From Helicobacteraceae bacterium (GTDB lineage Bacteria > Campylobacterota > Campylobacteria > Campylobacterales > Sulfurimonadaceae): DNA of 64,000 nucleotides. Under the pieces are notes generated by a model. It made no database searches, was not told the DNA's origin, and was given only the letters and a program-made list of their open reading frames with translations. Numbering within the stretch: the stretch's first letter is position 1; every line of letters starts with the position of its first letter. Below, one piece after another: positions 5,602-48,209 of this stretch. The stretch spans positions 1-64,000 of the forward strand of contig JALWGC010000003.1 of NCBI GenBank assembly GCA_027038835.1. Direction: 5' to 3'. Both the position numbers and the translations under genes were made by a program.

Positions 5602-6154
5602 TTCGGTAGAACCGTTGGTTGAGGGGAAGTTCATAACCCCCGTTCGTGTGCACTACACCCAAAGCGGTAGAAAAAAAACGTGGGAAGCGATAAAAAGTCA
5701 CGACAGCGTGGCGGTATTGCTCTATCATGTGGAAAAAGAGGCGTTCGTGCTTGTGAAACAGCTACGTATAACCACGATGCTCAACGCTCAAGAAGAGAAC
5801 GACGGCTATACCTACGAGTTGTGCGCAGGGATTGTTGATAAGGAGCTCACTCTTGCACAGATAGCCAAAGAGGAGATACTCGAAGAGTGCGGCTACGACG
5901 TTCCTTTGCAGAAGATACGCCGCATCACCTCCTACTACACCGGTGTCGGTTTTAGCGGTGCGAAACAGACGATGTTCTACGCCGAAATCGATGATTCTTT
6001 GAAAGTGAGCGAAGGGGGCGGAATAGAAGAGGAAGAGATAGAGCTGTTTTTTCTCCCCGTTACAAAAGCCAAAGAGTTCATGTACGATGAAAGCTATAAA
6101 AAAACACCCGGGCTTATAGCGGCGTTTTATTGGTTTTTCGATACAATCTCGTAA
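5582..6154 (+). CDS. Nudix hydrolase, UDP-sugar/ADP-ribose pyrophosphatase type
   Basis: About 190 residues from the ATG at 5582, chosen because AAAGGGAAAC precedes it; an earlier in-frame ATG at 5519 lies deep inside csd3. The Nudix box is present in the variant form AGIVDKELTL...EEILEECGYD: the metal-binding REUxEExGU core reads EEILEECGY, with Glu in place of Arg. This variant resembles UDP-sugar diphosphatases of the NUDT14 kind more than classic ADP-ribose enzymes. It would hydrolyse a nucleoside diphosphate sugar to a sugar phosphate plus NMP. Substrate assignment is inference. Confidence 0.85.
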   Translation: MPSVRIDSVEPLVEGKFITPVRVHYTQSGRKKTWEAIKSHDSVAVLLYHVEKEAFVLVKQLRITTMLNAQEENDGYTYELCAGIVDKELTLAQIAKEEILEECGYDVPLQKIRRITSYYTGVGFSGAKQTMFYAEIDDSLKVSEGGGIEEEEIELFFLPVTKAKEFMYDESYKKTPGLIAAFYWFFDTIS

Positions 6155-6169
6155 TCGAGGATTTGAAAG

Positions 6170-6376
6170 ATGGCGAAGAAAAAGAAAAGTGTCGATTTGA
6201 GCCAAGAGGAGCTTTATTTCGAGATAGAACAAGAACGTTTCAAGGCGCTGCGGTTTTACCCGTCGAATATGACGGTAGATGTCATGTGTTTTGTGGAAGG
6301 GAAAAAAAGCACGCAGCGAAATCTGCCGTTTTCACATTTGCCAAAGCGCGTCAAACAGTTGATAAAGCCGAAGTGA
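6170..6376 (+). CDS. Small basic conserved-looking hypothetical protein (68 aa)
   Basis: Starts MAKKKKSVDLSQ and ends in KQLIKPK. It has a basic start, an acidic helix (QEELYFEIEQERFKAL) and a C-terminal FSHLPKRVKQL motif. No signal peptide or membrane segment. It lies 15 bases after the Nudix gene and 10 bases before mlaE, and fills the gap neatly in the same orientation, so it is probably a real operon member. I recognise no family. Confidence 0.6.
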   Translation: MAKKKKSVDLSQEELYFEIEQERFKALRFYPSNMTVDVMCFVEGKKSTQRNLPFSHLPKRVKQLIKPK

Positions 6377-6386
6377 GGATGCGGCA

Positions 6387-7163
6387 ATGTTTGAAAAAGT
6401 GGGGGAAAAAACGCTTCAAACATTGAGTTCGCTCGTAGATGTTCTACGCTTTTTCGTTTTGTGCACCATCTCGATGTTTCGGCCTTCATCTTACAACCCC
6501 GCTATGATAATGGTGCTTATCAAGCAAATCTACTTCACCGCCGTTGGGATACTGCCGCTGTTTATTACGATGTCGGTGATTTTTGGAACTATCATCATCG
6601 GTGTCGTCATCTCGTTATCGACGCAGTACGGTTTGCAAGACAGCATCGGTTCTATCATCATCGCGTTCGTCGTGGACGAGTTCGCGCCGTTTTTTACCGC
6701 GCTGCTTATTTCGCTTCGCTCCTCCACCGCCGTCAACACCGAGATAGCGACGATGAAAGTCAACCATGAACTCGAGATGCTTCGAAGCTACAAAATCGAC
6801 CTTATAAGTTATCTGTTCATCCCAAGAATCATCAGCGGGATTGTCAGTGTCACTTCCCTCTCCATCCTTTTTGCCATCATCATGCTCGCAAGTGGATACA
6901 TCTTCGCGTTTTTCTATATGGGGATGGATTTGCATTCGTACAAACTGTTGCTGCTTAACGCCATAGAGGTCAAAGATATGGCGGTGTTGCTTGGTAAAGG
7001 GGTGGCGTTTGGGTTCGTAACGATGATGATTCCCATCTATAGCGGACTCAACGCTTTTGACAGCTACACCGCCATACCGATTTCGGTACTGAATGGCATG
7101 GTGAAGCTTTTTATTGCAATTTTCATTATCGAGGTGGCGTCATTACTTCTACAATCACTGTAA
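6387..7163 (+). CDS. mlaE: Mla-type phospholipid transporter permease (MlaE)
   Basis: A 258-residue MlaE-family permease with an N-terminal interfacial helix and about five membrane helices. The family segment with IIIAFVVDEFAPFFTALLISLR and the EIATMKVNHELEML coupling segment are clear; the latter contacts the ATPase. In Gram-negative bacteria MlaE sits in the inner membrane with MlaF, MlaD and MlaB and moves phospholipids between membranes. Gene order permease, ATPase-like, MCE protein, lipoprotein matches C. jejuni Cj1646-Cj1649. It overlaps the next reading frame. Confidence 0.92.
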   Translation: MFEKVGEKTLQTLSSLVDVLRFFVLCTISMFRPSSYNPAMIMVLIKQIYFTAVGILPLFITMSVIFGTIIIGVVISLSTQYGLQDSIGSIIIAFVVDEFAPFFTALLISLRSSTAVNTEIATMKVNHELEMLRSYKIDLISYLFIPRIISGIVSVTSLSILFAIIMLASGYIFAFFYMGMDLHSYKLLLLNAIEVKDMAVLLGKGVAFGFVTMMIPIYSGLNAFDSYTAIPISVLNGMVKLFIAIFIIEVASLLLQSL

Positions 7164-7615
7164 AACTCTTCGAGAAATACGAAGAGATAGGAACTTTTTT
7201 GGCACGAAATCCCCAAGGGGTACCGGTCTCCTCCAAGACACCGCTACTTGCGAATTTGGACATGAAAGAAAATATCGCTCTTATCAAAGAGGTGCACCGT
7301 AAAAAACCCAGACTCGAAGCGGAAGCGGAAGCGGTGGAGATGTTGCAGAAGATATCGCTTGGGCGAATCGGTTCTTTGCGAAGCAACAAATGCACCAAAG
7401 AGGAACTTTTTTACGTGATGATAATAAGAGCGCTTATGTGTGAAAGTGAAGAGATTTTCATCAAAACCCCTTTGCAACTTTTGGAAAATCTCAGCAATAT
7501 CTGCAAAATTATCGAAAATATAGAGATTTTAAATAACAACAAAGGTATAATGATACTCGATACACGCTCCAATCATTGGCACTACAAGGGATGCGGATGC
7601 AATATAGTAGAATGA
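7160..7615 (+). CDS. Degenerate MlaF-like ABC ATPase without Walker motifs
   Basis: This reading frame occupies the mlaF position but is only about 150 residues, against about 250 for a normal ATPase. The start is uncertain: GTG at 7160 or TTG at 7199. What remains looks like the second half of an ABC ATPase: LLANLDMKENIALIKEVH matches the region after the Q-loop. CTKEELFYVMIIRALMCESEE sits where the signature helix should be. EIFIKTP sits where Walker B (LLLLDEP) should be. There is no Walker A, LSGGQ or catalytic Glu. It is an intact frame in an intact operon, so it is probably expressed but unable to hydrolyse ATP. Confidence 0.65.
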   Translation, partial: VKLFEKYEEIGTFLARNPQGVPVSSKTPLLANLDMKENIALIKEVHRKKPRLEAEAEAVEMLQKISLGRIGSLRSNKCTKEELFYVMIIRALMCESEEIFIKTPLQLLENLSNICKIIENIEILNNNKGIMILDTRSNHWHYKGCGCNIVE

Positions 7616-16427: not shown

Positions 16428-16623
16428 TACCCAAACGGCCGCCATGCTAAGGACTTTGGTTCTCAAAGTCGAAAAATATGCAGATCGAGAGGAACTTTAG
16501 GCGGCAGCTTCTCGCTTCGTTGCCGAAGCTCGAGCGAAGTCACCGACACACCGCCCCTCTACGGCATCCGCAATATGAAAATGTAGAACCCTCATATTGC
16601 AGTGATGCGCACCGTTTAGGCAT
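16428..16623 (-). ncRNA. ssrS: Probable 6S RNA (ssrS)
   Basis: This 195-base gap is full of strong helices. On the minus strand the two ends pair: CCTAAACGG (16620-16612) with CCGTTTGGG (16438-16430). Inside are three hairpins: GCAATATGA/TCATATTGC (16570-16600), a GGCGG/CCGCC arm (16500-16555), and GACTTTG/CAAAGTC (16452-16470). The last one, followed by CAUGGCGGCC before the closing strand, and the segment CGAGAAGC in the middle arm, resemble the corresponding parts of E. coli 6S RNA. A TATAAT lies seven bases before the predicted 5' end. Length and position upstream of purD fit. 6S RNA binds housekeeping RNA polymerase. End points are approximate. Confidence 0.68.
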
Positions 16624-35786: not shown

Positions 35787-38700
35787 ATGATGCAAAGGGT
35801 GTTTTTTATCATTTTGATTCTACTTTCGGTCAGTGCCGGCGCGTCTGCTAGATGTAACGGTTGCGACTGTAGTTTAGATACGCGAGCGAACGACAGTTCT
35901 CCCGGGGTCGCCATCCCGGAGTTGGATGGAGCGACGGATGATGTAACTAAATGTATAAGCGGGAGTTCAAGAAACGATGATAAGGATTATTATCATTTTA
36001 CGCTAGAGAGCGATGGGAAGTTGGAGATTACGACATCTTCTCCAAACGGTCATGACTATCATATGAAGATAAGATCGAATAAGCAGGGGACTTTGCTTAG
36101 CTACGATACCGCTCAAGATAGGTTGCTTTTTTATGATGTAACCGCCGGAGAGAAGATAACGGTTGAATTTGTAGAAACCGGAAGCGGTACGGATGAATAT
36201 GAAGCGACTTTCAAGTTCACGAAATCGGAATCGAGCGGGGGAGATTGTGGCGAATGTGATTGCACGTTGGATACGCCGGCGAACGACAGATCTCCTGGAG
36301 TCGCTATTCCGGAGTTGGATGGAGCGACAAGCGATGTAACGAAGTGTATAATCGGAAGTTCGGAGGACGACGATAAAGATTACTACCATTTTACCGTAGA
36401 AAAAGAGGGTAGACTCGATATCAATACATCTTCTCCAAATGGTCATGATTACCATATGGAAATCGTCTCAAGCGAGAATGGAACCTTATTGGAGTACGAT
36501 ACCGGTCAAAATAGAAATCTTTCCTATTACCTTTCCGAGGGTGAAAAGATAACGATTTTGTTGAAGGAAACCGGAGACGATTTGGATAAATATAAAATCG
36601 ATTTAAGTTTTACGACCGGTATTGTCATTGAAAATGCCGACGATCTTTGCTACGAAGAGAAAGAGTTGGAAGGAGTCTGTCAAGATATAGGTTTGTGTGG
36701 AGGGGGTCTTGGTTGTAAAACTATATACCCGATCAAAAATGTTGGAAGCGAAAATCTTTCAAGTGTAAAAATTGTTATTGAAGAGAGTGAACCGGGAGGA
36801 TCTTTGTTTAGCGATTGCGGTGTGGATCCTGAAGGAGCTGGAGAGTGTAGCAATCAAAGCGATCTCAATTTTGGACCAATTGGAGTGTTGGGGGGTGCGA
36901 CCGTTTACGATTTTAACAACGAGATAGCACCAAACGATAACAGTAACAAGTTTTGGTTTAAAACGAGGGTGTCGGGAAGCTGCTTTTCAAGCGAAGATAT
37001 CTATGCTAGTTATATCAAAAACGGCACTTCGCATCGAGGAAAGTTAAAACGATGCATCGTTGTCGGTAAAGGAAAGGACCGACCATTTAAGATCAGGAAT
37101 CCAGAGCCGACGCGTAATATAGTAGGGAACTATACGATAATAGGTAACAGCAACCAGTGTGCGTTGCATAGTACCAGAGTCACCCCCCCATGGACGGGAA
37201 AATGTTATCAGTCCTACAGCAACAAGCGTCCTTCACGTTATATAGATGTGGATGATGATGTTTCGACGAAAAACTCGACGACTTCCACTTTAAACATACC
37301 TAAAGGTTCTACCGTTGTTTGGGCAGGGCTTTACTGGCAAGGGGTAGTTCACAACTCTACGGTACGCGGTGACTTTATGGGAACATCAGGGCGAGCCAAT
37401 GGTGATACCATCAAGGGTGAGCCGCTGTTTAGTTCGGGTAGGCAAATCAATTTTGAAAAAGCCGGAAGTTCGTACGGTGCGGAGAAGGTTTTGTTCAAAC
37501 TTCCCGGAGGTACTTATACGGAAGTGACGGCGGATGTGTTTGATTATCATAACTTAGGGTATGCCGGGTTTAAGGATGTTACCGATATGTTGAATGCTTC
37601 CGACCCTAACGGTGTATATGCCGTAGCCGATATCAAGTCAAATCAAGGGGTTGAAGACAATCACGGAAATTATGCCGCGTGGTCGTTGGTGGTTATATAT
37701 AAAAACGCCAATGAAACATTTAAAAATATCAGTATTTTTGACGGTTATGCGACAGTCGATAGTCATTTTAACGAAGATCTTGTCGTTAAAGGTTTTTTAA
37801 CACCGAAAACGCCCCCAATCAATTCAAAGATCGCGATGTTCGCTACGGATGGTGACGACGACGAGAACTCTTTGACTGTCGTTTCGCAAAGAGGGAAAAG
37901 TACAAAAATAGAAAATCAAGATCACCCCGGGCATTATCTATTTGATTCGACCATTTCGAATTCGATAGTGCGCAATCCAAATACAACAAGCCTTCGTACC
38001 GATTTGAAAATTTTGGATCTAGTCGATGTTTTAGGACCTACTGAAACAGAAGCGATACTAAAGCCGCGTACCAATGGGGATCGATATACTCCATCCTTTT
38101 TTATTATGTCTGCAGATCTGCGAACCATTGATTTATGCTACGACTATACGTATGGACAAGGTGGTTTTTTTCAGACGGCGCCAAGTATCAAGCCTACAAA
38201 AATCGAAGGAACATTCGATAGTTCAAAACCGATCAATGTTAAATTCTATTTGAAAAATCAAGAGAATTCCGATGTTACGATCGAAAATCTAACTGTTAAT
38301 ATAGAAGATATTAATACTTCGCAAGCCACATATAAAAGAGATACGACTTATGTAACGGTACCGGGAAGCTCTGAACGAACTTTTGTAAAAGATAGTGGAA
38401 GAAAAATTTCGGATGAATACGATAAGGATATCCCCATAGGAGATGTTAATTCGATGGAATATTTCTATACCTATTTTAGTCTTGATCCAAAAAAACCGGA
38501 TATTGAATTCCCTTTACATATTACCTTTAAATATAATTTGATCGTTAAAATAGATAATGAAGTGCTTAGGCTTGATGATTCCAGTGTTAGTATAGAAAAT
38601 ATGAATCCATGCCAAGCAACCAATGGGTACAAGCCTGTACCGGGTCGTTTCAACGTCGTTCACCAAGCGTATAAAAATACCAACTTGAGTTCTGGATACT

Positions 38701-40889
38701 ACTACAACATCCCGACACAGGTCGTAAAAAGATATACCGATAATTTCGTCGTCGAGTCGATGAATCCAAACGACTTGAACGATACCGAGCCAATCAGTAC
38801 CGCCGTCGCGCTGGAGATGGTCGATATGGACGGATTCCACTACGTTACGGCAACTTGTACCGACGTTAACGCGACCGTTTTGAGTAAAAAAAGGTTGTGG
38901 GTGATTTTCGACTCCAACACCTCCGCGTTCAAGCCGCTTACCAAAACCGACTTGGAGCGTGCGGGATTTTTCGACAACGCATCGCGAAACGCTGCGTTTA
39001 GGCTCGCTTACAATGTCGCCGATGCTAACGACAGCGTCATACAGTTGTCGAAAAACGCGAGCGGCAAATACACTATGTTGAACTTTTCCAACTATGCCGG
39101 AGCGAACTGCGCGAGCAGTTTCGTCTCCAGTACCGGAAGCAGGGGTGGAAAGGTGTCTGATTATTGCGGAAGCGGTGCTGGAAAAAGCGGTAACGGTATG
39201 GACGCCAACGAGTTGCGCGAATGTATGGAGTGTATATTCAGTATCAATACGTTTAGAATGTGTTCAAGAGACAACTTCGCCATCCGCCCAGAGGCTTTCA
39301 AGCTGATGTTCTCGGATCAAAATCAAACCAACCCGTCGCAACTCATTTCGCTGGGCAACACAGCGACCAAACTCGATTTGGCATCGGGATACGACTACAA
39401 AGCCGAAGTGAACGCTACAAGCCATGTTGACGACAACGCGACTCCGGGTTACTACGGTGCGGGTTCTACCTTGACGCTTCAGTGGAACTCCACAAAACCG
39501 GCAGGAGCGTGTAACGACACCAACGATGTGGATGTCAATGTGAGTATTATAAACGGTAGAGGAACCGGAGATGTCGTTCTCAATCAGGTAGGGGAGTATA
39601 AATTGCACCTCGAAGATAAAGAATGGACGGCGGCGGATTGGAGATACCTCGCCCACCATAGCGGAAAATATTTCAAAAACGGTACGGATTGTATCGCCAA
39701 TTCCCACGCAGTCGCCAAAGCTTCCACTATGAAGAAAAACGGATGTGTCATCAGTAGTGAGCACAACAACTCCGAGTTTTCGGCATTGAAGTATTTCGAC
39801 TATACGATGGAATTCCACCCTTACAAGTTCGATATCTCTTCGATTGTCAGTTCAGTGGGGCTAGACGACAGTAACGTAACGACGAACGCTTTTGTTTACA
39901 ATGCGAACATGGATGAAAACGCAAGCGGGAACTACGACGATATCAACATGTCATACCACCTCTACGGTTCGGTAATCGCACAAGGGGAGAACAACGCCAC
40001 CTTGTCGAACTTCGTTTCGGGATGTTACGCTAAAGATATCAAAATAGTGCTCCCAAGAAGCGCTTATGCAGATACGAGCATGACTTTCAAAGGAAGCGTC
40101 GAAACGCTCGATGGAAGCAACAACCGCTTGACGATCGTCTTTGAAGATGTGAACAACTCCAAAGATTTCGTCGATGTTTCGAAAAACGCTTTTGCAAAAT
40201 CATTAAACGGAACTGCGAACGTGCGCATCCGCTACAACTTCAAACGTGATATCAACGAATCGAAAAATCCGCAGACTATCACGTTCAAAAAGTTGAGTGT
40301 CGGATGTAAAAACGCTGCCGAGTGCCGCACCAAAGCCGACTTGGGCGATCATGACGTAAATGCGAGTTCGTTTAAAGATATCAACGAAACGATCCGTTTT
40401 TATTACGCAAGAGCGTATGTGCCAGATAGTAAAATCATCGGTAACAGCGGTACGGTCAAGGGGTATTACGAGATTTACTGCTCCGGTAGCGGATGTAACA
40501 AAGCGCTACTACCTCAAGGTGCGGCGTCCAAAGGAAGCGATGACCCAAGATGGTGGATCAACGAGTCCCACACAAGCGGATACGGTAAAATGAAAGAGAT
40601 AAAACAAAAACGAACACCGGTTCATGTAACGTTAAACGGTGCTTCGCCAAGCGGAAACGCTACGGAGAATATTCCGCTTCTTTACGATGAACAAAGGGGG
40701 TATCCGTACAAAGCGACTATGAAGATTATACCGAACAGATGGCTGATATACAACAAATACAACGCAAACGCCGATCATAACGAGTTTGACGTCAAGTTCG
40801 AAGGCAACGGCGAATGGGCGGGTAAAAACTCCTCCAAAAGTGTTACAAACACTTTCAACGCAGATAAATCAAGGATTCTCCAATGGTAA
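35787..40889 (+). CDS. Giant secreted surface protein 1 of the pilus locus (1700 aa)
   Basis: Signal peptide at residues 1-22. Two tandem domains of about 120 residues (starting CNGCDCSLDT and CGECDCTLDT) resemble pre-peptidase C-terminal (PPC) domains and share YYHFT...SSPNGHDYHM. A Cys-rich domain begins at NADDLCYEE (about 283), and a domain with STVVWAGLYWQG (about 508) has a DUF3344-like look. From about residue 951 the tail is almost identical to that of the second giant protein. It contains DNFAIRPEAF and many Asn/Asp-rich strands, so it is probably beta-rich and cell-surface. I do not know its exact family. By context it resembles MshQ/PilY1-type pilus proteins. Its own pilin partner downstream is truncated. 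Confidence 0.8.
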   Translation: MMQRVFFIILILLSVSAGASARCNGCDCSLDTRANDSSPGVAIPELDGATDDVTKCISGSSRNDDKDYYHFTLESDGKLEITTSSPNGHDYHMKIRSNKQGTLLSYDTAQDRLLFYDVTAGEKITVEFVETGSGTDEYEATFKFTKSESSGGDCGECDCTLDTPANDRSPGVAIPELDGATSDVTKCIIGSSEDDDKDYYHFTVEKEGRLDINTSSPNGHDYHMEIVSSENGTLLEYDTGQNRNLSYYLSEGEKITILLKETGDDLDKYKIDLSFTTGIVIENADDLCYEEKELEGVCQDIGLCGGGLGCKTIYPIKNVGSENLSSVKIVIEESEPGGSLFSDCGVDPEGAGECSNQSDLNFGPIGVLGGATVYDFNNEIAPNDNSNKFWFKTRVSGSCFSSEDIYASYIKNGTSHRGKLKRCIVVGKGKDRPFKIRNPEPTRNIVGNYTIIGNSNQCALHSTRVTPPWTGKCYQSYSNKRPSRYIDVDDDVSTKNSTTSTLNIPKGSTVVWAGLYWQGVVHNSTVRGDFMGTSGRANGDTIKGEPLFSSGRQINFEKAGSSYGAEKVLFKLPGGTYTEVTADVFDYHNLGYAGFKDVTDMLNASDPNGVYAVADIKSNQGVEDNHGNYAAWSLVVIYKNANETFKNISIFDGYATVDSHFNEDLVVKGFLTPKTPPINSKIAMFATDGDDDENSLTVVSQRGKSTKIENQDHPGHYLFDSTISNSIVRNPNTTSLRTDLKILDLVDVLGPTETEAILKPRTNGDRYTPSFFIMSADLRTIDLCYDYTYGQGGFFQTAPSIKPTKIEGTFDSSKPINVKFYLKNQENSDVTIENLTVNIEDINTSQATYKRDTTYVTVPGSSERTFVKDSGRKISDEYDKDIPIGDVNSMEYFYTYFSLDPKKPDIEFPLHITFKYNLIVKIDNEVLRLDDSSVSIENMNPCQATNGYKPVPGRFNVVHQAYKNTNLSSGYYYNIPTQVVKRYTDNFVVESMNPNDLNDTEPISTAVALEMVDMDGFHYVTATCTDVNATVLSKKRLWVIFDSNTSAFKPLTKTDLERAGFFDNASRNAAFRLAYNVADANDSVIQLSKNASGKYTMLNFSNYAGANCASSFVSSTGSRGGKVSDYCGSGAGKSGNGMDANELRECMECIFSINTFRMCSRDNFAIRPEAFKLMFSDQNQTNPSQLISLGNTATKLDLASGYDYKAEVNATSHVDDNATPGYYGAGSTLTLQWNSTKPAGACNDTNDVDVNVSIINGRGTGDVVLNQVGEYKLHLEDKEWTAADWRYLAHHSGKYFKNGTDCIANSHAVAKASTMKKNGCVISSEHNNSEFSALKYFDYTMEFHPYKFDISSIVSSVGLDDSNVTTNAFVYNANMDENASGNYDDINMSYHLYGSVIAQGENNATLSNFVSGCYAKDIKIVLPRSAYADTSMTFKGSVETLDGSNNRLTIVFEDVNNSKDFVDVSKNAFAKSLNGTANVRIRYNFKRDINESKNPQTITFKKLSVGCKNAAECRTKADLGDHDVNASSFKDINETIRFYYARAYVPDSKIIGNSGTVKGYYEIYCSGSGCNKALLPQGAASKGSDDPRWWINESHTSGYGKMKEIKQKRTPVHVTLNGASPSGNATENIPLLYDEQRGYPYKATMKIIPNRWLIYNKYNANADHNEFDVKFEGNGEWAGKNSSKSVTNTFNADKSRILQW

Positions 40890-40929
40890 ATAGAAACGGG
40901 TTTTCGATGATAGAGCTGATATTCGCTAT
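38641..40929 (+). repeat. Long direct repeat, copy 1
   Basis: This 2289-base block is repeated at 44116-46404 without insertions or deletions (offset 5475). By eye I see a few mismatches before 38826, none from 38826 to 40842, a handful in 40843-40880, then identity again through the first 47 bases of the pilin frame. It covers the last ~750 codons of the giant gene. Weaker similarity extends to about 38601. Confidence 0.93.
40837..40855 (+). other. Hairpin near the 3' end of giant gene 1
   Basis: AAAGTGT and ACACTTT pair around TACAA, 28 bases before the pilin start. The second copy has the same hairpin at 46312-46330 with a C-G pair where this one has T-A. Confidence 0.4.
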
Positions 40930-40972
40930 AAGGAGCGATGTTGTTTTAAGTCGTGAAAAACATAAAAAGTGA
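40883..40972 (+). pseudogene. Truncated type IV pilin-like remnant
   Basis: The frame begins MVNRNGFSMIELIFAI, identical to the start of the complete minor-pilin gene at 46358, with the peptidase site and Glu5. Identity stops after 47 bases, in the middle of the membrane helix. It then continues for 13 unrelated residues (RSDVVLSREKHKK) to a TGA. A 29-residue product cannot be a pilin. It marks the right end of the duplicated segment. Confidence 0.85.
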
Positions 40973-41065: not shown

Positions 41066-41143
41066 ATGGAGAAAAGCCAAACCTGTCGCGAGGCAGGGAC
41101 GGAAAGCCACGGGTCTCAAAGAGGCAGCCGGGCTGCCTATCAT
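41066..41143 (+). promoter_or_regulatory. Cyclic di-GMP-I (GEMM-I) riboswitch
   Basis: The aptamer core is clear: GCCAAACC (41076-41083), a stem CCTGTC/GGCAGG closed by a GCGA (GNRA) tetraloop (41088-41091), the invariant GGGACGGAAAGCC (41096-41108), a GTCTC/GAGGC hairpin (41113-41125), and the AGCCGGGCT strand with GCTGCC (41126-41137). Aligned to the V. cholerae Vc2 aptamer and to the Geobacter cGAMP aptamer from memory, the base at 41076 is the position-20 specificity base. It is G, as in c-di-GMP binders, not A as in cGAMP binders. The outer P1 helix is weak. It lies in the 5' leader of the second giant gene; the ORF that appears to run through it is not real there. Confidence 0.9.
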
Positions 41144-41222: not shown

Positions 41223-44200
41223 ATGGAAAACATAAAAACTATCTTTCGAATTGTAGGGTTGTTCTCTTTATTCACGTCGGTACTTTTTGCCGCAAGCTAT
41301 TCATGTCCGGGTGAAGATGTACTTCATATCGACGGTGCAATTGAAAGTACCGCTAAGTCTTACGATACTACAAGCAGATTTATACAAAATGGAGGGGGAC
41401 GTTATTGGAAGTTCGAAACTATGGTCGATGGAACCATAACGATTATGCAAAATACGTTAAAAAATGAACAAAACTACAGAAACCATCGGCTTTTAGTCGG
41501 AACCTCTTGTGGTGGTAGCGATATCTATCAGGGAAAAACATCGACAGCCGATTCGACGACTTTTCCTGTACAAAAAAATAAAACGTACTATGTAAAGATT
41601 GAAGAAAGAAACAATAGAAATCAATTGAATGTTCGTGTTTCATTCGTTTTTGCAAAACAAGGGGATAGCGGATGTAGCGGATGTGATTGTAAGTACGACA
41701 CGGGAAACAATGAAATTTTCAATGATACCTCTCCCGGTGTGAAAATAGCGGAGCTTAGTAATAAAACTACCAAAGAGCAAAAATGTTTCAGTGGTATATC
41801 GGTAAGCGGAAGTGGTCATAACGAGGATAATTTCTATTTTATCGCCGGTACCGATGGAAATGTAAGTGTCAATACTTCTTCTCCGAATATGCACGACTAT
41901 CATATGAAGGTAACAAGAGGCGGCACTGTTGTCTATGCAGATACGACAACAATCAACCATAGCGTACATTTCAAGGTTGCAAAAGGGGATAGAGTAGTTC
42001 TTTACTTCAAAGAAGCGGGAGACGATGCAGACAAATACGAAGCAACAGTAACCTTTGAACCATCCTCTTCCGGGATTATCGAAAATGCCGACGATATTTG
42101 TTACGAAGATATCGTTACGTCCGGAATGTGTATCGGGGCAGGACCGTGTGCCGGTGGTATGCAGTGTAAAAAAGCGTATCCGCTTAAAAATATCGGAGAC
42201 GGAGAGTTGAGCGATGTTACGATTTATTATGACGAAACTGGTTTGGGAGGGACTTTCGGTAAGAGTTGCGGAGTCGATCCATCCGGTACTTGTCAGACCA
42301 AAAGTAATATTGACCTTGGTCCCGTCGGTTTGCTTGGAAAAACCACGGAGTACGACATAACCAATCCTATGCCTATAGGAGACAATTCCACATCTATATG
42401 GTCTAAACCGTTTGCAAGCGGGAGTTGTTTCAACGGAAGCAACCTTTATGCGACCTATATAAAAAACGGTAAACGACATAGAGGGAAAGTGAAGCCTTGT
42501 AGTGTGGATTTTACCTGTGCGAACCCGAAAGATTACGATATCATATACCGAGGAAACGCACATAGTAAAATGATAATGGCGGGTAATACGAATTTGTGCA
42601 AAAGAAAAGGAAAGACAGGTCATGTTTGTCAAACGAATGTGAGCACAAGTACGACCAATAACAATATTTTCATGATCAATGACGATTACGACGACATTAT
42701 AGGCGAGGCGGACTATACCGCTACGCTACATAACTCCTCTGCGGCTTATGTAGATATACCGAAGGATAAAAAAGTCGTATGGGCTGGACTTTTCTGGCAG
42801 GGATATATGGCTGGGACGCTTACCGACGCAGACAAACGCAAAGGCAGAGAGATCAAATTCAAACAAGAGGGCGATACTTATCAAACATATACCGACGGTG
42901 ATATGCATTGGGTTTACATTACCGATAAAAGAATGTACTACCAAAGCTTTGTCAATGTTACAAAGTATGTCAAATCTCATGGTGGCGGTTACTACTGGGT
43001 TGGAGACATCGCTACATCCGAAGGTACACCTGAAGGAGGAAGCTATGGTGCATGGACGCTTGCGGTGGTATATGAAGATGACAACGAACCGTTTCGAAAC
43101 ACAACGATCTTTTACGGCTACAAAGGGTTGATGAAGGGGAAAGATGTTACAAACGCTAAAAGTTATGCTCGTGCGCATGGGTGCCCTAGTGATGACGATA
43201 GTATAGGAATCGCCAACAGCATAGAAGAAACGATTAGCGGATTTCTTACGCCAAAATCAGGCAACGTGGATGCTTCGCTTATCATATTTGCGGGGGAAGG
43301 TGATACATGGGCAAGCGGCGAGTATGGTTATATAACAGATAAGTATGCAAAGAGGCATAAGTTGACAAACGCAAAAAACCCCGATGGCAACATTATGAAC
43401 TCGACCATCACGAAAGATGGTAATTATGTAACAAACGGTAAGCCCCACTTCGGTAACAATAGTTTGGGAATCGATATCGATACGTACGATATGAGCGGAA
43501 AATTAAGCAACTATCAAACATCGACGAAAATTGGTCTTCAAACGGATGGCGATGGTTATTTCCCCGGTATGTTCGGATTTGAAGCGCAACTCAAAGAGAT
43601 GCGGCTCTGTTACGATTTTACATATGGTCAAAACGGTCATTTTCAAACAGCGCCGACAGTTAAACCCCCAAAAATCGAAGCGCAAGTTTCCAAGAATGAC
43701 TCGCTCGATGTCAAGATATATTTCAAAAACCTTGAAAAAGACAGCGATGTGATCGCAAAGAATATCACCGTCGATATCGATGATATCAACACGACACAAG
43801 CAACTTACAAACGTGATTCGACGTATGTAACGCGCCCTAATTCGGCGACGAGAATCGCAGTTCAAGATTCGGGAAGAAGGGTAGCTGACAAGTACGATAA
43901 AGATATACCCGTCGGTGATTTGGGAGGATTGGAGTATTTTTACACCTACTACAGTCTCGAGCCGAAAAAAAGCACTATCGATATGATGTTAAACGCTTTC
44001 TTACGTTACGATCTTGCGGTAAATATAGGTGGAACTACCGTTACGCTTCCGGGCGCACAGACATATATGAAAGACATGAATCCATGTCAGACAACCAATG
44101 CGTACAAGCCTGTACCGGGTCGTTTCAACGTCGTTCATCAAGCGTATAAAAATACCAACTTGAGTTCTGGATACTACTACAACATTCCGACACAGGTCGT

Positions 44201-46364
44201 GAAAAGATATACCGATAATTTCGTCGTCGAGTCGATGAATCCAAACGATTTGAACACTACCAAGCCAATCAGTACCGCCGTCGCGCTGGAGATGGTGGAG
44301 ATGGACGGATTCCACTACGTTACGGCAACTTGTACCGACGTTAACGCGACCGTTTTGAGTAAAAAAAGGTTGTGGGTGATTTTCGACTCCAACACCTCCG
44401 CGTTCAAGCCGCTTACCAAAACCGACTTGGAGCGTGCGGGATTTTTCGACAACGCATCGCGAAACGCTGCGTTTAGGCTCGCTTACAATGTCGCCGATGC
44501 TAACGACAGCGTCATACAGTTGTCGAAAAACGCGAGCGGCAAATACACTATGTTGAACTTTTCCAACTATGCCGGAGCGAACTGCGCGAGCAGTTTCGTC
44601 TCCAGTACCGGAAGCAGGGGTGGAAAGGTGTCTGATTATTGCGGAAGCGGTGCTGGAAAAAGCGGTAACGGTATGGACGCCAACGAGTTGCGCGAATGTA
44701 TGGAGTGTATATTCAGTATCAATACGTTTAGAATGTGTTCAAGAGACAACTTCGCCATCCGCCCAGAGGCTTTCAAGCTGATGTTCTCGGATCAAAATCA
44801 AACCAACCCGTCGCAACTCATTTCGCTGGGCAACACAGCGACCAAACTCGATTTGGCATCGGGATACGACTACAAAGCCGAAGTGAACGCTACAAGCCAT
44901 GTTGACGACAACGCGACTCCGGGTTACTACGGTGCGGGTTCTACCTTGACGCTTCAGTGGAACTCCACAAAACCGGCAGGAGCGTGTAACGACACCAACG
45001 ATGTGGATGTCAATGTGAGTATTATAAACGGTAGAGGAACCGGAGATGTCGTTCTCAATCAGGTAGGGGAGTATAAATTGCACCTCGAAGATAAAGAATG
45101 GACGGCGGCGGATTGGAGATACCTCGCCCACCATAGCGGAAAATATTTCAAAAACGGTACGGATTGTATCGCCAATTCCCACGCAGTCGCCAAAGCTTCC
45201 ACTATGAAGAAAAACGGATGTGTCATCAGTAGTGAGCACAACAACTCCGAGTTTTCGGCATTGAAGTATTTCGACTATACGATGGAATTCCACCCTTACA
45301 AGTTCGATATCTCTTCGATTGTCAGTTCAGTGGGGCTAGACGACAGTAACGTAACGACGAACGCTTTTGTTTACAATGCGAACATGGATGAAAACGCAAG
45401 CGGGAACTACGACGATATCAACATGTCATACCACCTCTACGGTTCGGTAATCGCACAAGGGGAGAACAACGCCACCTTGTCGAACTTCGTTTCGGGATGT
45501 TACGCTAAAGATATCAAAATAGTGCTCCCAAGAAGCGCTTATGCAGATACGAGCATGACTTTCAAAGGAAGCGTCGAAACGCTCGATGGAAGCAACAACC
45601 GCTTGACGATCGTCTTTGAAGATGTGAACAACTCCAAAGATTTCGTCGATGTTTCGAAAAACGCTTTTGCAAAATCATTAAACGGAACTGCGAACGTGCG
45701 CATCCGCTACAACTTCAAACGTGATATCAACGAATCGAAAAATCCGCAGACTATCACGTTCAAAAAGTTGAGTGTCGGATGTAAAAACGCTGCCGAGTGC
45801 CGCACCAAAGCCGACTTGGGCGATCATGACGTAAATGCGAGTTCGTTTAAAGATATCAACGAAACGATCCGTTTTTATTACGCAAGAGCGTATGTGCCAG
45901 ATAGTAAAATCATCGGTAACAGCGGTACGGTCAAGGGGTATTACGAGATTTACTGCTCCGGTAGCGGATGTAACAAAGCGCTACTACCTCAAGGTGCGGC
46001 GTCCAAAGGAAGCGATGACCCAAGATGGTGGATCAACGAGTCCCACACAAGCGGATACGGTAAAATGAAAGAGATAAAACAAAAACGAACACCGGTTCAT
46101 GTAACGTTAAACGGTGCTTCGCCAAGCGGAAACGCTACGGAGAATATTCCGCTTCTTTACGATGAACAAAGGGGGTATCCGTACAAAGCGACTATGAAGA
46201 TTATACCGAACAGATGGCTGATATACAACAAATACAACGCAAACGCCGATCATAACGAGTTTGACGTCAAGTTCGAAGGCAACGGCGAATGGGCGGGTAA
46301 AAACTCCTCCAAAAGTGCTACAGGCACTTCGAACGCAGATAAATCAAGGATTCTTAAATGGTAA
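41223..46364 (+). CDS. Giant secreted surface protein 2 (1713 aa), riboswitch-controlled
   Basis: Start set at ATG 41223, preceded by AAGG, because it gives a proper signal peptide (MENIKTIFRIVGLFSLFTSVLFA); the open frame continues upstream through the riboswitch. Domains: a unique N-terminal PPC-like domain (about 25-142), a second PPC-like domain from CSGCDCKYDT, a Cys-rich domain at NADDICYED, a DUF3344-like part with VVWAGLFWQG, a linker and the constant tail from about residue 965. Head domains are homologous to the first giant protein but well diverged, while the tail is nearly identical. The stop overlaps the pilin start by seven bases. Probably a surface or pilus-tip adhesin made when c-di-GMP changes. 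Confidence 0.82.
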   Translation: MENIKTIFRIVGLFSLFTSVLFAASYSCPGEDVLHIDGAIESTAKSYDTTSRFIQNGGGRYWKFETMVDGTITIMQNTLKNEQNYRNHRLLVGTSCGGSDIYQGKTSTADSTTFPVQKNKTYYVKIEERNNRNQLNVRVSFVFAKQGDSGCSGCDCKYDTGNNEIFNDTSPGVKIAELSNKTTKEQKCFSGISVSGSGHNEDNFYFIAGTDGNVSVNTSSPNMHDYHMKVTRGGTVVYADTTTINHSVHFKVAKGDRVVLYFKEAGDDADKYEATVTFEPSSSGIIENADDICYEDIVTSGMCIGAGPCAGGMQCKKAYPLKNIGDGELSDVTIYYDETGLGGTFGKSCGVDPSGTCQTKSNIDLGPVGLLGKTTEYDITNPMPIGDNSTSIWSKPFASGSCFNGSNLYATYIKNGKRHRGKVKPCSVDFTCANPKDYDIIYRGNAHSKMIMAGNTNLCKRKGKTGHVCQTNVSTSTTNNNIFMINDDYDDIIGEADYTATLHNSSAAYVDIPKDKKVVWAGLFWQGYMAGTLTDADKRKGREIKFKQEGDTYQTYTDGDMHWVYITDKRMYYQSFVNVTKYVKSHGGGYYWVGDIATSEGTPEGGSYGAWTLAVVYEDDNEPFRNTTIFYGYKGLMKGKDVTNAKSYARAHGCPSDDDSIGIANSIEETISGFLTPKSGNVDASLIIFAGEGDTWASGEYGYITDKYAKRHKLTNAKNPDGNIMNSTITKDGNYVTNGKPHFGNNSLGIDIDTYDMSGKLSNYQTSTKIGLQTDGDGYFPGMFGFEAQLKEMRLCYDFTYGQNGHFQTAPTVKPPKIEAQVSKNDSLDVKIYFKNLEKDSDVIAKNITVDIDDINTTQATYKRDSTYVTRPNSATRIAVQDSGRRVADKYDKDIPVGDLGGLEYFYTYYSLEPKKSTIDMMLNAFLRYDLAVNIGGTTVTLPGAQTYMKDMNPCQTTNAYKPVPGRFNVVHQAYKNTNLSSGYYYNIPTQVVKRYTDNFVVESMNPNDLNTTKPISTAVALEMVEMDGFHYVTATCTDVNATVLSKKRLWVIFDSNTSAFKPLTKTDLERAGFFDNASRNAAFRLAYNVADANDSVIQLSKNASGKYTMLNFSNYAGANCASSFVSSTGSRGGKVSDYCGSGAGKSGNGMDANELRECMECIFSINTFRMCSRDNFAIRPEAFKLMFSDQNQTNPSQLISLGNTATKLDLASGYDYKAEVNATSHVDDNATPGYYGAGSTLTLQWNSTKPAGACNDTNDVDVNVSIINGRGTGDVVLNQVGEYKLHLEDKEWTAADWRYLAHHSGKYFKNGTDCIANSHAVAKASTMKKNGCVISSEHNNSEFSALKYFDYTMEFHPYKFDISSIVSSVGLDDSNVTTNAFVYNANMDENASGNYDDINMSYHLYGSVIAQGENNATLSNFVSGCYAKDIKIVLPRSAYADTSMTFKGSVETLDGSNNRLTIVFEDVNNSKDFVDVSKNAFAKSLNGTANVRIRYNFKRDINESKNPQTITFKKLSVGCKNAAECRTKADLGDHDVNASSFKDINETIRFYYARAYVPDSKIIGNSGTVKGYYEIYCSGSGCNKALLPQGAASKGSDDPRWWINESHTSGYGKMKEIKQKRTPVHVTLNGASPSGNATENIPLLYDEQRGYPYKATMKIIPNRWLIYNKYNANADHNEFDVKFEGNGEWAGKNSSKSATGTSNADKSRILKW

Positions 46365-46404
46365 ATAGAAACGGGTTTTCGATGATAGAGCTGATATTCG
46401 CTAT
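44116..46404 (+). repeat. Long direct repeat, copy 2
   Basis: Second copy of the 2289-base repeat described at 38641-40929, at a constant offset of 5475. After 46404 the sequence continues into the intact pilin gene, while copy 1 breaks off. Confidence 0.93.
46312..46330 (+). other. Hairpin near the 3' end of giant gene 2
   Basis: AAGTGC pairs with GCACTT around TACAG, the counterpart of the hairpin at 40837-40855, with a compensated base pair. It lies just before the start of the first minor-pilin gene. Confidence 0.4.
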
Positions 46405-46771
46405 CGTGGTGATATCGATAGGGGTTTTGTCGCTGCCGATGATGAGCGAGGTAACTTCCAACGCATCGGCTAGCACGATGAAAACAGAAGAGGCGGTGTT
46501 CGAAGCGTATGTAAAGGCGCTTGAAGTGACCGATGCCGGATACGACGACTTAAACGGTACCGGCGGCTATGTGAACGTAGCTTCACTTGCAAGTGACAAG
46601 TCGCAAGGATTGAAGTTAGGTACACAGATGAAAGCGACGGTTCAAAGAGGTGTCGCTTTTTTACAAGGTGGCGCGGCGGATAACAATATAGCGCTCGTTA
46701 CCGTCGAGGTCAAAGATGCCGACGGGCTCATAGCACGTTTATACACGTACGATTTTAACGTGAGTAGGTAA
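46358..46771 (+). CDS. Type IV minor pilin / pseudopilin, PilV-MshD-like
   Basis: 137 residues. MVNRNG is the leader; cleavage before FSMIELIFAIVVISIGVLSLP leaves Phe1 and Glu5 and a hydrophobic helix, the hallmark of class III signal peptides processed by PilD. The globular part is short, with no Cys pair. Its ATG lies inside the end of giant gene 2 (ATGGTAA), so translation is coupled. It is the first of three consecutive pilin genes, as in the minor-pilin clusters of type IV and MSHA pili. Confidence 0.87.
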   Translation: MVNRNGFSMIELIFAIVVISIGVLSLPMMSEVTSNASASTMKTEEAVFEAYVKALEVTDAGYDDLNGTGGYVNVASLASDKSQGLKLGTQMKATVQRGVAFLQGGAADNNIALVTVEVKDADGLIARLYTYDFNVSR

Positions 46772-46773
46772 TT

Positions 46774-47736
46774 ATGAAACTGCGAAGAGATGGATTTACC
46801 CTTTTGGAATTGGTTTTTGTTATTGTCGTGTTGGCGATAATATCGAAATTCGGTGTCGAGTTTTTGGCGCAGGCTTATAGAAACTACCTCGACCAAGAAG
46901 TAACGAGCAGACTTGCCAATACAAGTTCGAGTGCCGTGGAGTATATAGCCAAGAAGCTCCAATACCGCATACGAAGCTCGGTGATAGTGCGAAAAGATTT
47001 GAGTGATTACAAAGCGCTCGAGGGGTTCAATCTAACAGGTGCGAATGCCGAAGAGTACAAAACGCTTGAGTGGATAGGGTACGACATAGAAGGTTTTAGA
47101 GGAGCTGGAGACGGTGAGCCGTACTGGAGTGGCGTAATCGATAAAAAAGCCTCTTTGGACAGTAACACGTACATCTTCACTAAAGGAAGCAATCTCAACA
47201 AAGTCAATCTTTTGATTAAAAAGCTTTCATACAACCACTCTACTATCGACGATGCCGCTATTTACATTTTTTCCGCACAAAACGACATATACAAAAGTTT
47301 CGGATGGTACGGAGGGGAGAAAATAAAAGACCAAACGCTCGAGTACGCTATGCATCCGGTTAAAGAACAAAACACTACGGCATTCGCTCCGGGGCCGGAT
47401 TCAGATGGCAACCCGACAACCTTTAGCGACCTTTTTACCGATGTCAAAGATAGAGGGGAATGGGACGCTCGCTACTACCTCGCTTGGACGGCGTATGCGG
47501 TCAAACTCGATGCGGCTACGAAAAAGTTGATACTCTATTACGATTTTCAACCGTGGCAAGGGGAGAAATATACCGACGGGAAACAGCAAACACTTATGGA
47601 GAACGTCAATACGTTCAAAATGATTCAAAAACAAGGAATTATAAAAATTCAGGTGTGTACGACAAGCGACGTAAACGGAACTGGAAAACTCGATATAGGT
47701 GGATTCGCGCTATGCAAAGAAAAAACTATTTACTAA
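46774..47736 (+). CDS. Type IV minor pilin / pseudopilin, PilW-MshO-like
   Basis: 320 residues, long for a pilin. Leader MKLRRDG, then FTLLELVFVIVVLAIISKFGV with Glu5. The large C-terminal part is polar and ends with CTTSDVNGTGKLDIGGFALCKE, a Cys pair likely to form a disulfide. Size and position (second, after the PilV-like gene) fit PilW/MshO. It starts two bases after the previous stop and overlaps the next gene by 25 bases. Confidence 0.85.
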   Translation: MKLRRDGFTLLELVFVIVVLAIISKFGVEFLAQAYRNYLDQEVTSRLANTSSSAVEYIAKKLQYRIRSSVIVRKDLSDYKALEGFNLTGANAEEYKTLEWIGYDIEGFRGAGDGEPYWSGVIDKKASLDSNTYIFTKGSNLNKVNLLIKKLSYNHSTIDDAAIYIFSAQNDIYKSFGWYGGEKIKDQTLEYAMHPVKEQNTTAFAPGPDSDGNPTTFSDLFTDVKDRGEWDARYYLAWTAYAVKLDAATKKLILYYDFQPWQGEKYTDGKQQTLMENVNTFKMIQKQGIIKIQVCTTSDVNGTGKLDIGGFALCKEKTIY

Positions 47737-48209
47737 AAAAAGGCTCCAAAAGAGGCGGTTTCGCCTTGGTCATGGCGGTAGCGTTGTTAGTGATTTTGGC
47801 GACCATTATGGCGTTTTCGATTCAGATGACGGCGAAATCGCAAAAAAGAGCGGTCGATATTTACGTAGAAAACCAAGCTATACTCTATGCCAAAAACGTA
47901 GCGGAATATTTCGTCTATAAAATCAGCCAAGACAAAAACTGTACGACACAGAAAAATTTCGACATCAACATCAACCAAAGCCCGAAATATCATGCGAAAG
48001 TGAAGCTTTTTTATATCGTTTCCGATATGGACAACACCCATTACTGTAAACAGCAAAGTGATCTGAACCTGACTGCCGGGCATGATGAAGACCCGTACGC
48101 TTACGTGCGTATCGACGTTACGATGGATGTGAGTGACGGCAACATCACTTCGGAGCCTATCAGGATTTTTCGACGCTATGTGGAGGATATCACCCCGTTT
48201 GTGTATTGA
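47712..48209 (+). CDS. Type IV minor pilin / pseudopilin, PilX-GspK-like (no Glu5)
   Basis: 165 residues from ATG 47712, with AGGTGG eight bases before it; the longer frame is a shadow of the previous gene. A basic leader MQRKNYLLKKGSKRGG precedes FALVMAVALLVILATIMAF. Position 5 is Met, not Glu, as in GspK and other tip pilins. A Cys pair (NCTTQ and HYCKQQ) may form a disulfide. The gene closes the riboswitch-controlled operon. Confidence 0.85.
   Translation: MQRKNYLLKKGSKRGGFALVMAVALLVILATIMAFSIQMTAKSQKRAVDIYVENQAILYAKNVAEYFVYKISQDKNCTTQKNFDININQSPKYHAKVKLFYIVSDMDNTHYCKQQSDLNLTAGHDEDPYAYVRIDVTMDVSDGNITSEPIRIFRRYVEDITPFVY

Follow-up and report, generated by a model that had tools for sequence, protein, structure and literature searches.

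The window, by which we mean the whole stretch of 64,000 nucleotides analyzed, comes from a marine bacterium and lies on a contig of 170,548 bp (C3) of a genome assembled in 19 contigs (G000). It contains two giant genes in tandem, each of which appears to encode a protein with three parts: an N-terminal head, which is variable, a linker, and a C-terminal tail of considerable length. The features needed for the description of the locus are, in the coordinates of the window:

35787–38606, + strand: gene 1 head and linker (variable part), the head being nearest to the heads of Sulfurovum (62%), G027 and G003
38150–38606, + strand: gene 1 linker domain, A+T-rich, directly before the tail (32.9% GC for 38150–38599)
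38607–40889, + strand: gene 1 tail, 760 aa, homologous to the gene 2 tail
38826–40842, + strand: exact 2017-bp repeat, copy 1, the putative conversion core (pairwise match, search of the own genome)
40883–40972, + strand: pilin gene stub, a 29-codon open reading frame with a prepilin-type leader whose first 47 bases equal the pilin start at 46358
41067–41141, + strand: predicted c-di-GMP-I-GGC riboswitch aptamer (RF03167), 67.7 bits against a cut-off of 59 (covariance model)
41223–44081, + strand: gene 2 head and linker, with the ATG at 41223 as presumed start
44082–46364, + strand: gene 2 tail, homologous to the gene 1 tail
44301–46317, + strand: exact 2017-bp repeat, copy 2 (pairwise match, search of the own genome)
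46358–46771, + strand: pilin-like gene A (N_methyl, PF07963), overlapping the end of gene 2
46774–47736, + strand: pilin-like gene B (N_methyl, PF07963)
47712–48209, + strand: third pilin-like open reading frame, PilX-like, with a hydrophobic N-terminus and no family at its cut-off

The start of gene 2 was set at the ATG because the TTG listed for this gene (41052) is located upstream of the aptamer. Gene 2 is directly followed by the N_methyl genes, the first of which begins within the end of the tail gene, and the aptamer sits between the pilin stub and gene 2.

Comparison of the two tails reveals that 38826–40842 and 44301–46317 match over 2017 bp without any mismatch, synonymous sites included, at an offset of 5475, and that this match is maximal; the perfect identity of about 2.0 kb originally noticed between the giant genes is therefore real. 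The homologous block is wider than this exact core and reaches from about 38607, where a MNPCQ motif is found, to 40929, so that the islands of homology are not bounded by the exact stretch, contrary to the original prediction. The left edge (38607–38825) contains 13 mismatches in 219 bp and the right edge (40843–40929) seven in 87 bp, all of the latter within 40843–40881; edges with about 6.5% mismatch thus stand against a core with none in 2017 positions (Fisher p = 1.4e-18). The last 40 bases of the genes, which had been described as differing again, do contain the seven mismatches, but the copies are once more identical for 48 bp at 40882–40929, past the stop codon of gene 1. Within this stretch 40883–40929 equals 46358–46404, the first 47 bases of the pilin gene behind gene 2, and beyond them the sequences are unrelated. 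As the start of the pilin gene has been copied behind gene 1, the duplicated or pasted segment took in the junction between tail and pilin gene.

The tail repeat is present in two copies only in its own genome, and no other exactly repeated 40-mer was found in the 64-kb window, which together with the length of the exact match rules out a chance repeat. A transposon or phage as the cause was rejected, given that there is no tRNA and no relevant tandem array and that the repeat lies inside coding sequence. A diversity-generating retroelement, suggested by the differing 3' ends of the tails, was judged unlikely from the type of substitution, as the 7 + 13 differences at the edges involve G, C and T besides A. 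A third tail copy in the own genome was also sought: there is no further DNA match, and only a distant protein relative is encoded on contig C14 (L066 9625–13635, - strand, approximately 159.6–163.6 kb of C14), with pilin-like genes and a PilT/PilB-like ATPase gene close by.

The heads of the two genes are full-length homologues with 34% amino acid identity over 966 columns and with third codon positions that are near random, in agreement with the distant homology first proposed for the upstream parts. The A+T-rich stretch suspected before the boundary proved more pronounced than stated: 38150–38599 has 32.9% GC, and among 1271 windows of 450 bp (50-bp steps over the 64 kb) only one, which possibly overlaps it, is as low. 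The GC content at third positions is 25.8% in 38150–38599, 39.4% in the whole head of gene 1 and 57.3% in the tail. The linkers, comprising the approximately 165 residues before the tail, are 52% identical between gene 1 and gene 2, and the gene 1 linker is equally similar to that of G003. This is an old split, and the identity of the tails cannot, therefore, date from the duplication of the linkers. The nearest head module of gene 1 belongs to Sulfurovum and that of gene 2 to a genome labelled Nitratifractor (63%). The genes are mosaics, as had been surmised, both in base composition and in the affinities of linkers and heads; from these affinities linker and tail look resident, the heads foreign.

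A relative of the tail was identified in 41 of the 60 genomes searched, the own genome included, and in at least 140 contig stretches of the named collection, mostly from Sulfurimonas, Sulfuricurvum and Sulfurovum. In this collection an alignment-based profile recovered 140 of 154 stretches, of which 80 were kept; a query with a single tail found no relatives. The genus of the window genome includes MAGs labelled Helicobacteraceae, and its family includes many records labelled Sulfurimonas; going by these labels, the family would be Sulfurimonadaceae. Most genomes possess one giant gene of this family. The same pilin genes come after the giant gene in most of the 30 loci examined, and the locus is often flanked by yfiO/lon and hpf; gene 1 of the window adjoins yfiO, as does a gene of G003 with a head of the gene 1 type. 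A description of this protein family was not found in the PMC literature searched and may still exist there. Two of the loci show particular features: a contig labelled as a Thermoproteota archaeon (L137) carries a campylobacterotal tandem pair and is probably mis-binned, and in L109 (9764–12271, the same as L058) a stop codon close to the start of the tail interrupts the tail gene.

We compared phylogenetic trees of heads and tails, based on 102 tail-bearing open reading frames; the head tree has 82 rows and the tail tree 91, after removal of frames that were too short or lacked the tail start. The two trees disagree widely across the family. The heads of gene 1 and gene 2 fall into separate, well-supported clades that mix families, and their tails are sisters that group with those of G003 and G002 from the same genus. 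Among the 3160 pairs formed by 80 genes, 36 have a tail identity of at least 55%; their heads are 61–89% identical in 22 pairs, 51% in one and 19–48% in the remaining 13, which correspond to about eight independent cases, six of the pairs stemming from one event. Taking pairs with a tail identity of at least 55% and a head identity of at least 60% as apparently vertical, the head is better conserved than the tail in 19 of 22, so that a head identity of 38% on a tail identity of 99% is not the result of slow tail evolution. Breakpoints were estimated relative to the tail start in 12 of the pairs with exchanged heads: six lie at -166 to -197 aa, two near 0 (+6 in the window, -13 in G027) and four at +389 to +500 aa. 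The stretches of G031 and G018, both on single contigs, illustrate the replacement of a head: they are colinear until 15 bp inside the gene, do not align over about 1.2 kb of head (6053–7221 of the reversed G031 stretch) and are colinear again to the end, with flanks of 72.6% and 74.1% nucleotide identity. On these observations the genes form part of a modular family, located at a conserved pilin operon, whose members trade heads and keep their resident tails. Two single-copy genes from Sulfurimonas MAGs (L067 and L072) are 88% identical past tail position +500 and 34% before it, apparently a between-genome exchange of nearly the whole protein.

Tandem genes were compared in nine genomes (G000, G010, G023, G027, G028, G033, G036, L130/G072 and L137/G074), three of which contain near-identical tail stretches. 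Left out were L082 (overlapping open reading frames in two frames), L058/L109 (one genome, with the stop-split tail), named loci that duplicate G genomes, and contigs C26 and C6 of G045 (L035/L036), where the end of the locus is present on two contigs that are 100% identical over the common tail end, by either duplication or assembly redundancy. G023 and G033 represent two species of one genus; the contigs that bear their tandem genes break off within the tail and have identical terminal stretches there, of 141 and 149 bases, which we read as the likely sign of a long repeat that breaks the assembly. In an alignment of their four genes the informative sites group the orthologues through the head and the tail as far as +449 (e.g. 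59:0 and 26:1); from +450 onwards it is the paralogues that are grouped (29:12, then 6:0), indicative of concerted evolution in an independent species pair. The same analysis of G028 and G036, from one other genus, gave orthologue grouping throughout and no homogenization. The comparison of tails in relatives that had been recommended with the original prediction, carried out here between species, consequently speaks for joint evolution in the former pair but not in the latter. Homogenization was not seen in the tandem pair of G010 either, and tail identity is only moderately raised in that of G027; the last window of the G074 pair reaches 89%. A Sulfurovum bin (D100SM; L130/L208, G072) has three tandem genes, copies 2 and 3 being alike in patches of 82–93% nucleotide identity in the tail and copy 1 having none. 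A count over the four genes of the window and G027 was uninformative because the species are far apart. As another candidate pair, G066 was dismissed, since it shows a 125-bp overlap of two contigs and no third contig, which a simple contig break also explains. On this comparative evidence conversion seems to occur in some tandem pairs and not in all.

No Pfam family was found in the tail, either with both full proteins or in the 16 tails scanned, and head 1 gave only a weak PPC match below its cut-off. The structural model of the tail (mean pLDDT 88.9) is mostly β. The proteins that it matches best carry Ig-like repeats, for example PrgB, filamin, FdeC and invasin, and none of these matches reaches Z 8; no β-propeller is among them. 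The core of the gene 2 head was modeled with a mean pLDDT of 90.2, and 47 of 994 chains reach Z 8 against it. Its residues 139–306 match jelly-roll domains (furin P domain, PNGase F). Residues 309–466, which are the linker, match the C-terminus of antigen I/II (Z 9.7, 3.0 Å over 126 residues), and the linker model also matches S. sanguinis PilA (Z 9.6, 3.7 Å over 140) and RrgB (Z 9.1, 3.7 Å over 130). The linker of gene 2, the equivalent of 38150–38606 in gene 1, is accordingly modeled as an adhesin-type Ig-like domain. By these models the head would resemble an adhesin and sit on an Ig-like stalk, with the reservation that a common fold shows no function. All 37 genomes gave a PilT-family match, 34 of them over the cut-off, as did 13 of 14 control genomes (five over the cut-off). 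PilY1 (PF05567) had no match in the full proteins, in the 16 tails (E up to 1) or in the 37 genomes, where the genome control was likewise silent; DUF6701 (PF20419; MSHA MshQ) had none in the 16 tails or in the own genome, again with a silent control. Membership of the giant proteins in either family is not supported by this result from tails and genomes, both genome controls being silent.

The own genome contains seven aptamers of the c-di-GMP-I-GGC type, and none was scored before gene 1. The first long open reading frame behind each of the other six (L202–L206; contigs C5, C2, C11, C14 and C16) looks like a large secreted protein or lipoprotein with a Cys-Gly-rich start and is not linked to pilins; two of the six are then followed by open reading frames that we take to be DUF1800/DUF1501-like. 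These six further riboswitches appear to form a large riboswitch regulon. The search of 27 loci of relatives yielded no riboswitch, which excludes it as a general feature of the family and makes it no general part of the system. In the window its position implies that head 2 and the pilins probably have their regulation in common and that head 1 is controlled in another way, and the aptamer of gene 2 may respond to c-di-GMP. Elsewhere in the window, a purD RNA motif (RF01069) scored 72.4 bits against a cut-off of 41 (16429–16562, - strand).

The best explanation of the identical tails, and one that we regard as well supported, is recombinational homogenization, by gene conversion or an equivalent recent paste of the tail. 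Gene conversion or recent recombination had been put forward at the outset, and the contrast between linkers of 52% identity and a tail core with no difference even at synonymous sites speaks in its favor. The foreign source and exchange of the heads, the stub of the pilin gene, the riboswitch and the operon go beyond what had been noted there. An old duplication followed by strong purifying selection on the tail and fast divergence of the heads, without any recombination, could draw on the many invariant positions in the tail profiles; it is already contradicted by 2017 bp without a synonymous difference and fails because 19 of the 22 pairs that look vertical conserve the head better than the tail. 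The grouping of the heads with different foreign lineages and that of the paralogues in G023 and G033 go against it as well, and it can hardly be maintained. Improbable, though less so, is an assembly artefact in which a single consensus was built from two tails that differ slightly and was then placed twice, differences being left only within read length of the flanks. The mismatches do have such a shape, none being farther than about 220 bp from the unique flank on the left or about 90 bp from that on the right, and the genome is assembled in 19 contigs. Copies that differ by 6%, like the edges, should however be separable with ordinary reads, so that only small differences could be hidden in this way; moreover, the four outer flanks are all different and are found on a single 170-kb contig, and in G023 and G033 the assembly is interrupted at the tail copies in the manner of true long repeats. 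The insertion of the second head by a single, Campbell-like crossover in the tail deserves more weight, even if we find it somewhat unlikely. The 2.3-kb direct repeat would then be the duplicated arm and its identity a matter of youth, with no later conversion. Such an arm would fit the abrupt end of the repeat in the pilin gene and the stub behind gene 1, as well as the ancestral place of gene 1 next to yfiO, shared with the G003 gene. Yet the 6.5% mismatch at the edges against 0/2017 in the core means that some homogenization is needed in addition, and the linkers, of the same lineage but only 52% identical, also count against it.

A further alternative concerns function and is compatible with the recombination history: the proteins might be other giant secreted surface proteins that merely share the pilin operon, to which the six other riboswitch-preceded genes, also apparently for large secreted proteins without link to pilins, lend some weight. 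Against this stand the succession of giant gene and pilin genes in most of the 30 loci of relatives, the overlap of the pilin gene start with the end of the tail gene, and a linker modeled like adhesin and pilin stalk domains at Z 9–10; we consider a function apart from the pilus rather doubtful. An adhesin function and attachment to the pilus is what we infer for the giant proteins instead, which may take the place of PilY1.

Returning to recombinational homogenization, the locus would encode two giant secreted proteins of modular design, arranged in tandem at a type IV pilin operon that is conserved among Sulfurimonadaceae and their relatives. Recombination between conserved flanks would bring in heads from other strains and other genera, and the tail would remain resident in the lineage; the window genome would carry two heads in tandem on copies of its resident tail. 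Its history may have begun with a resident unit of head, linker, tail and pilin, to which a second unit with another head and the riboswitch was added; recombination would then have put tail and pilin start behind linker 1, and renewed conversion would have affected 2 kb of tail. Homologous recombination of the RecA type would recently have made the 2017 bp identical over an older layer of about 6.5% divergence. The own genome encodes RecA and a ComEC-family protein, which makes uptake and recombination plausible; we infer the RecA dependence and the direction of copying. Most likely the two genes supply a single pilus-associated stalk with a choice of adhesive heads, and the common tail would stay compatible with the pilin partners encoded downstream; the c-di-GMP-class riboswitch would govern head 2 along with the pilins, but not head 1. 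This account as a whole, with resident tail, foreign heads, homogenized tandem tails and alternative pilus heads, appears to us probable. More tentative, and in our opinion unlikely to hold in full, is the idea of head switching. The constant recombining tail, reaching into the next pilin gene, would serve both as universal docking part and as homology arm for head exchange across genera, and the 2-kb direct repeat would let the riboswitch and head 2 (5475 bp) loop out or return reversibly, so that some cells would have one head only and others a c-di-GMP-controlled head in addition.

Whole-head exchange on a resident tail suggests that surface or pilus binding can be altered in this way, allowing a fast change of attachment specificity. 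It also offers breakpoints to work from; counted from the tail start, these fall near -170, near 0 and between about +390 and +500 aa. For metagenome assemblies it serves as a warning, since such tails break in them or may be collapsed.

The closest precedent is found in the same phylum with babA/babB and homA/homB, likewise paralogous surface genes with a variable 5' and a homogenized 3' part. The bab and hom products are outer-membrane proteins of about 700 aa, unrelated to the 1700-aa modular proteins encoded here beside pilin genes. For babA/babB of H. pylori the available account describes 5' and middle regions that are alike between strains and 3' segments that are alike within a strain, i.e. 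concerted evolution, and the same pattern for homA/homB of this species, with gene conversion between loci (PMC3960876). The exchange of whole heads across genera suggested here is absent from that account of bab and hom, as far as the part of it available goes (PMC3960876). PilY1/PilC proteins, in the portions consulted of two reports, have a variable N-terminal and a conserved C-terminal part, are encoded with minor pilins, are in some cases horizontally acquired, and include paralogues with different roles such as PilC1/PilC2 of Neisseria and Kingella and the myxobacterial PilY1 proteins (PMC13190605, PMC12607826). The giant genes are alike in the variable N-terminal part, the conserved C-terminal part and the minor pilins alongside. 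According to the same portions PilY1 is defined by a C-terminal β-propeller, whereas the tail is modeled as resembling strings of Ig-like domains. The PilV shufflon known from conjugative plasmids relies on a site-specific recombinase, which inverts the C-terminal segments behind a constant N-terminus; as proposed here, one pilus thus receives interchangeable adhesive ends on a constant part, but in our case the C-terminus is constant and recombination would be driven by homology. Clostridioides difficile, from another phylum, has c-di-GMP riboswitches upstream of adhesin-like surface genes and of a type IV pilin gene, as described in the part of the report consulted (PMC6200980); here the aptamer precedes just one of two tandem genes and its ligand is predicted. 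Concerted evolution of the bab/hom kind is, by this analogy, already known from the phylum. New are the protein family, its setting in a pilin operon, a riboswitch that only one copy carries and an exchange of entire heads that crosses family boundaries, and the adhesin logic of H. pylori would thereby extend to mostly free-living Campylobacterota, on a giant family without Pfam match in the scanned tails.
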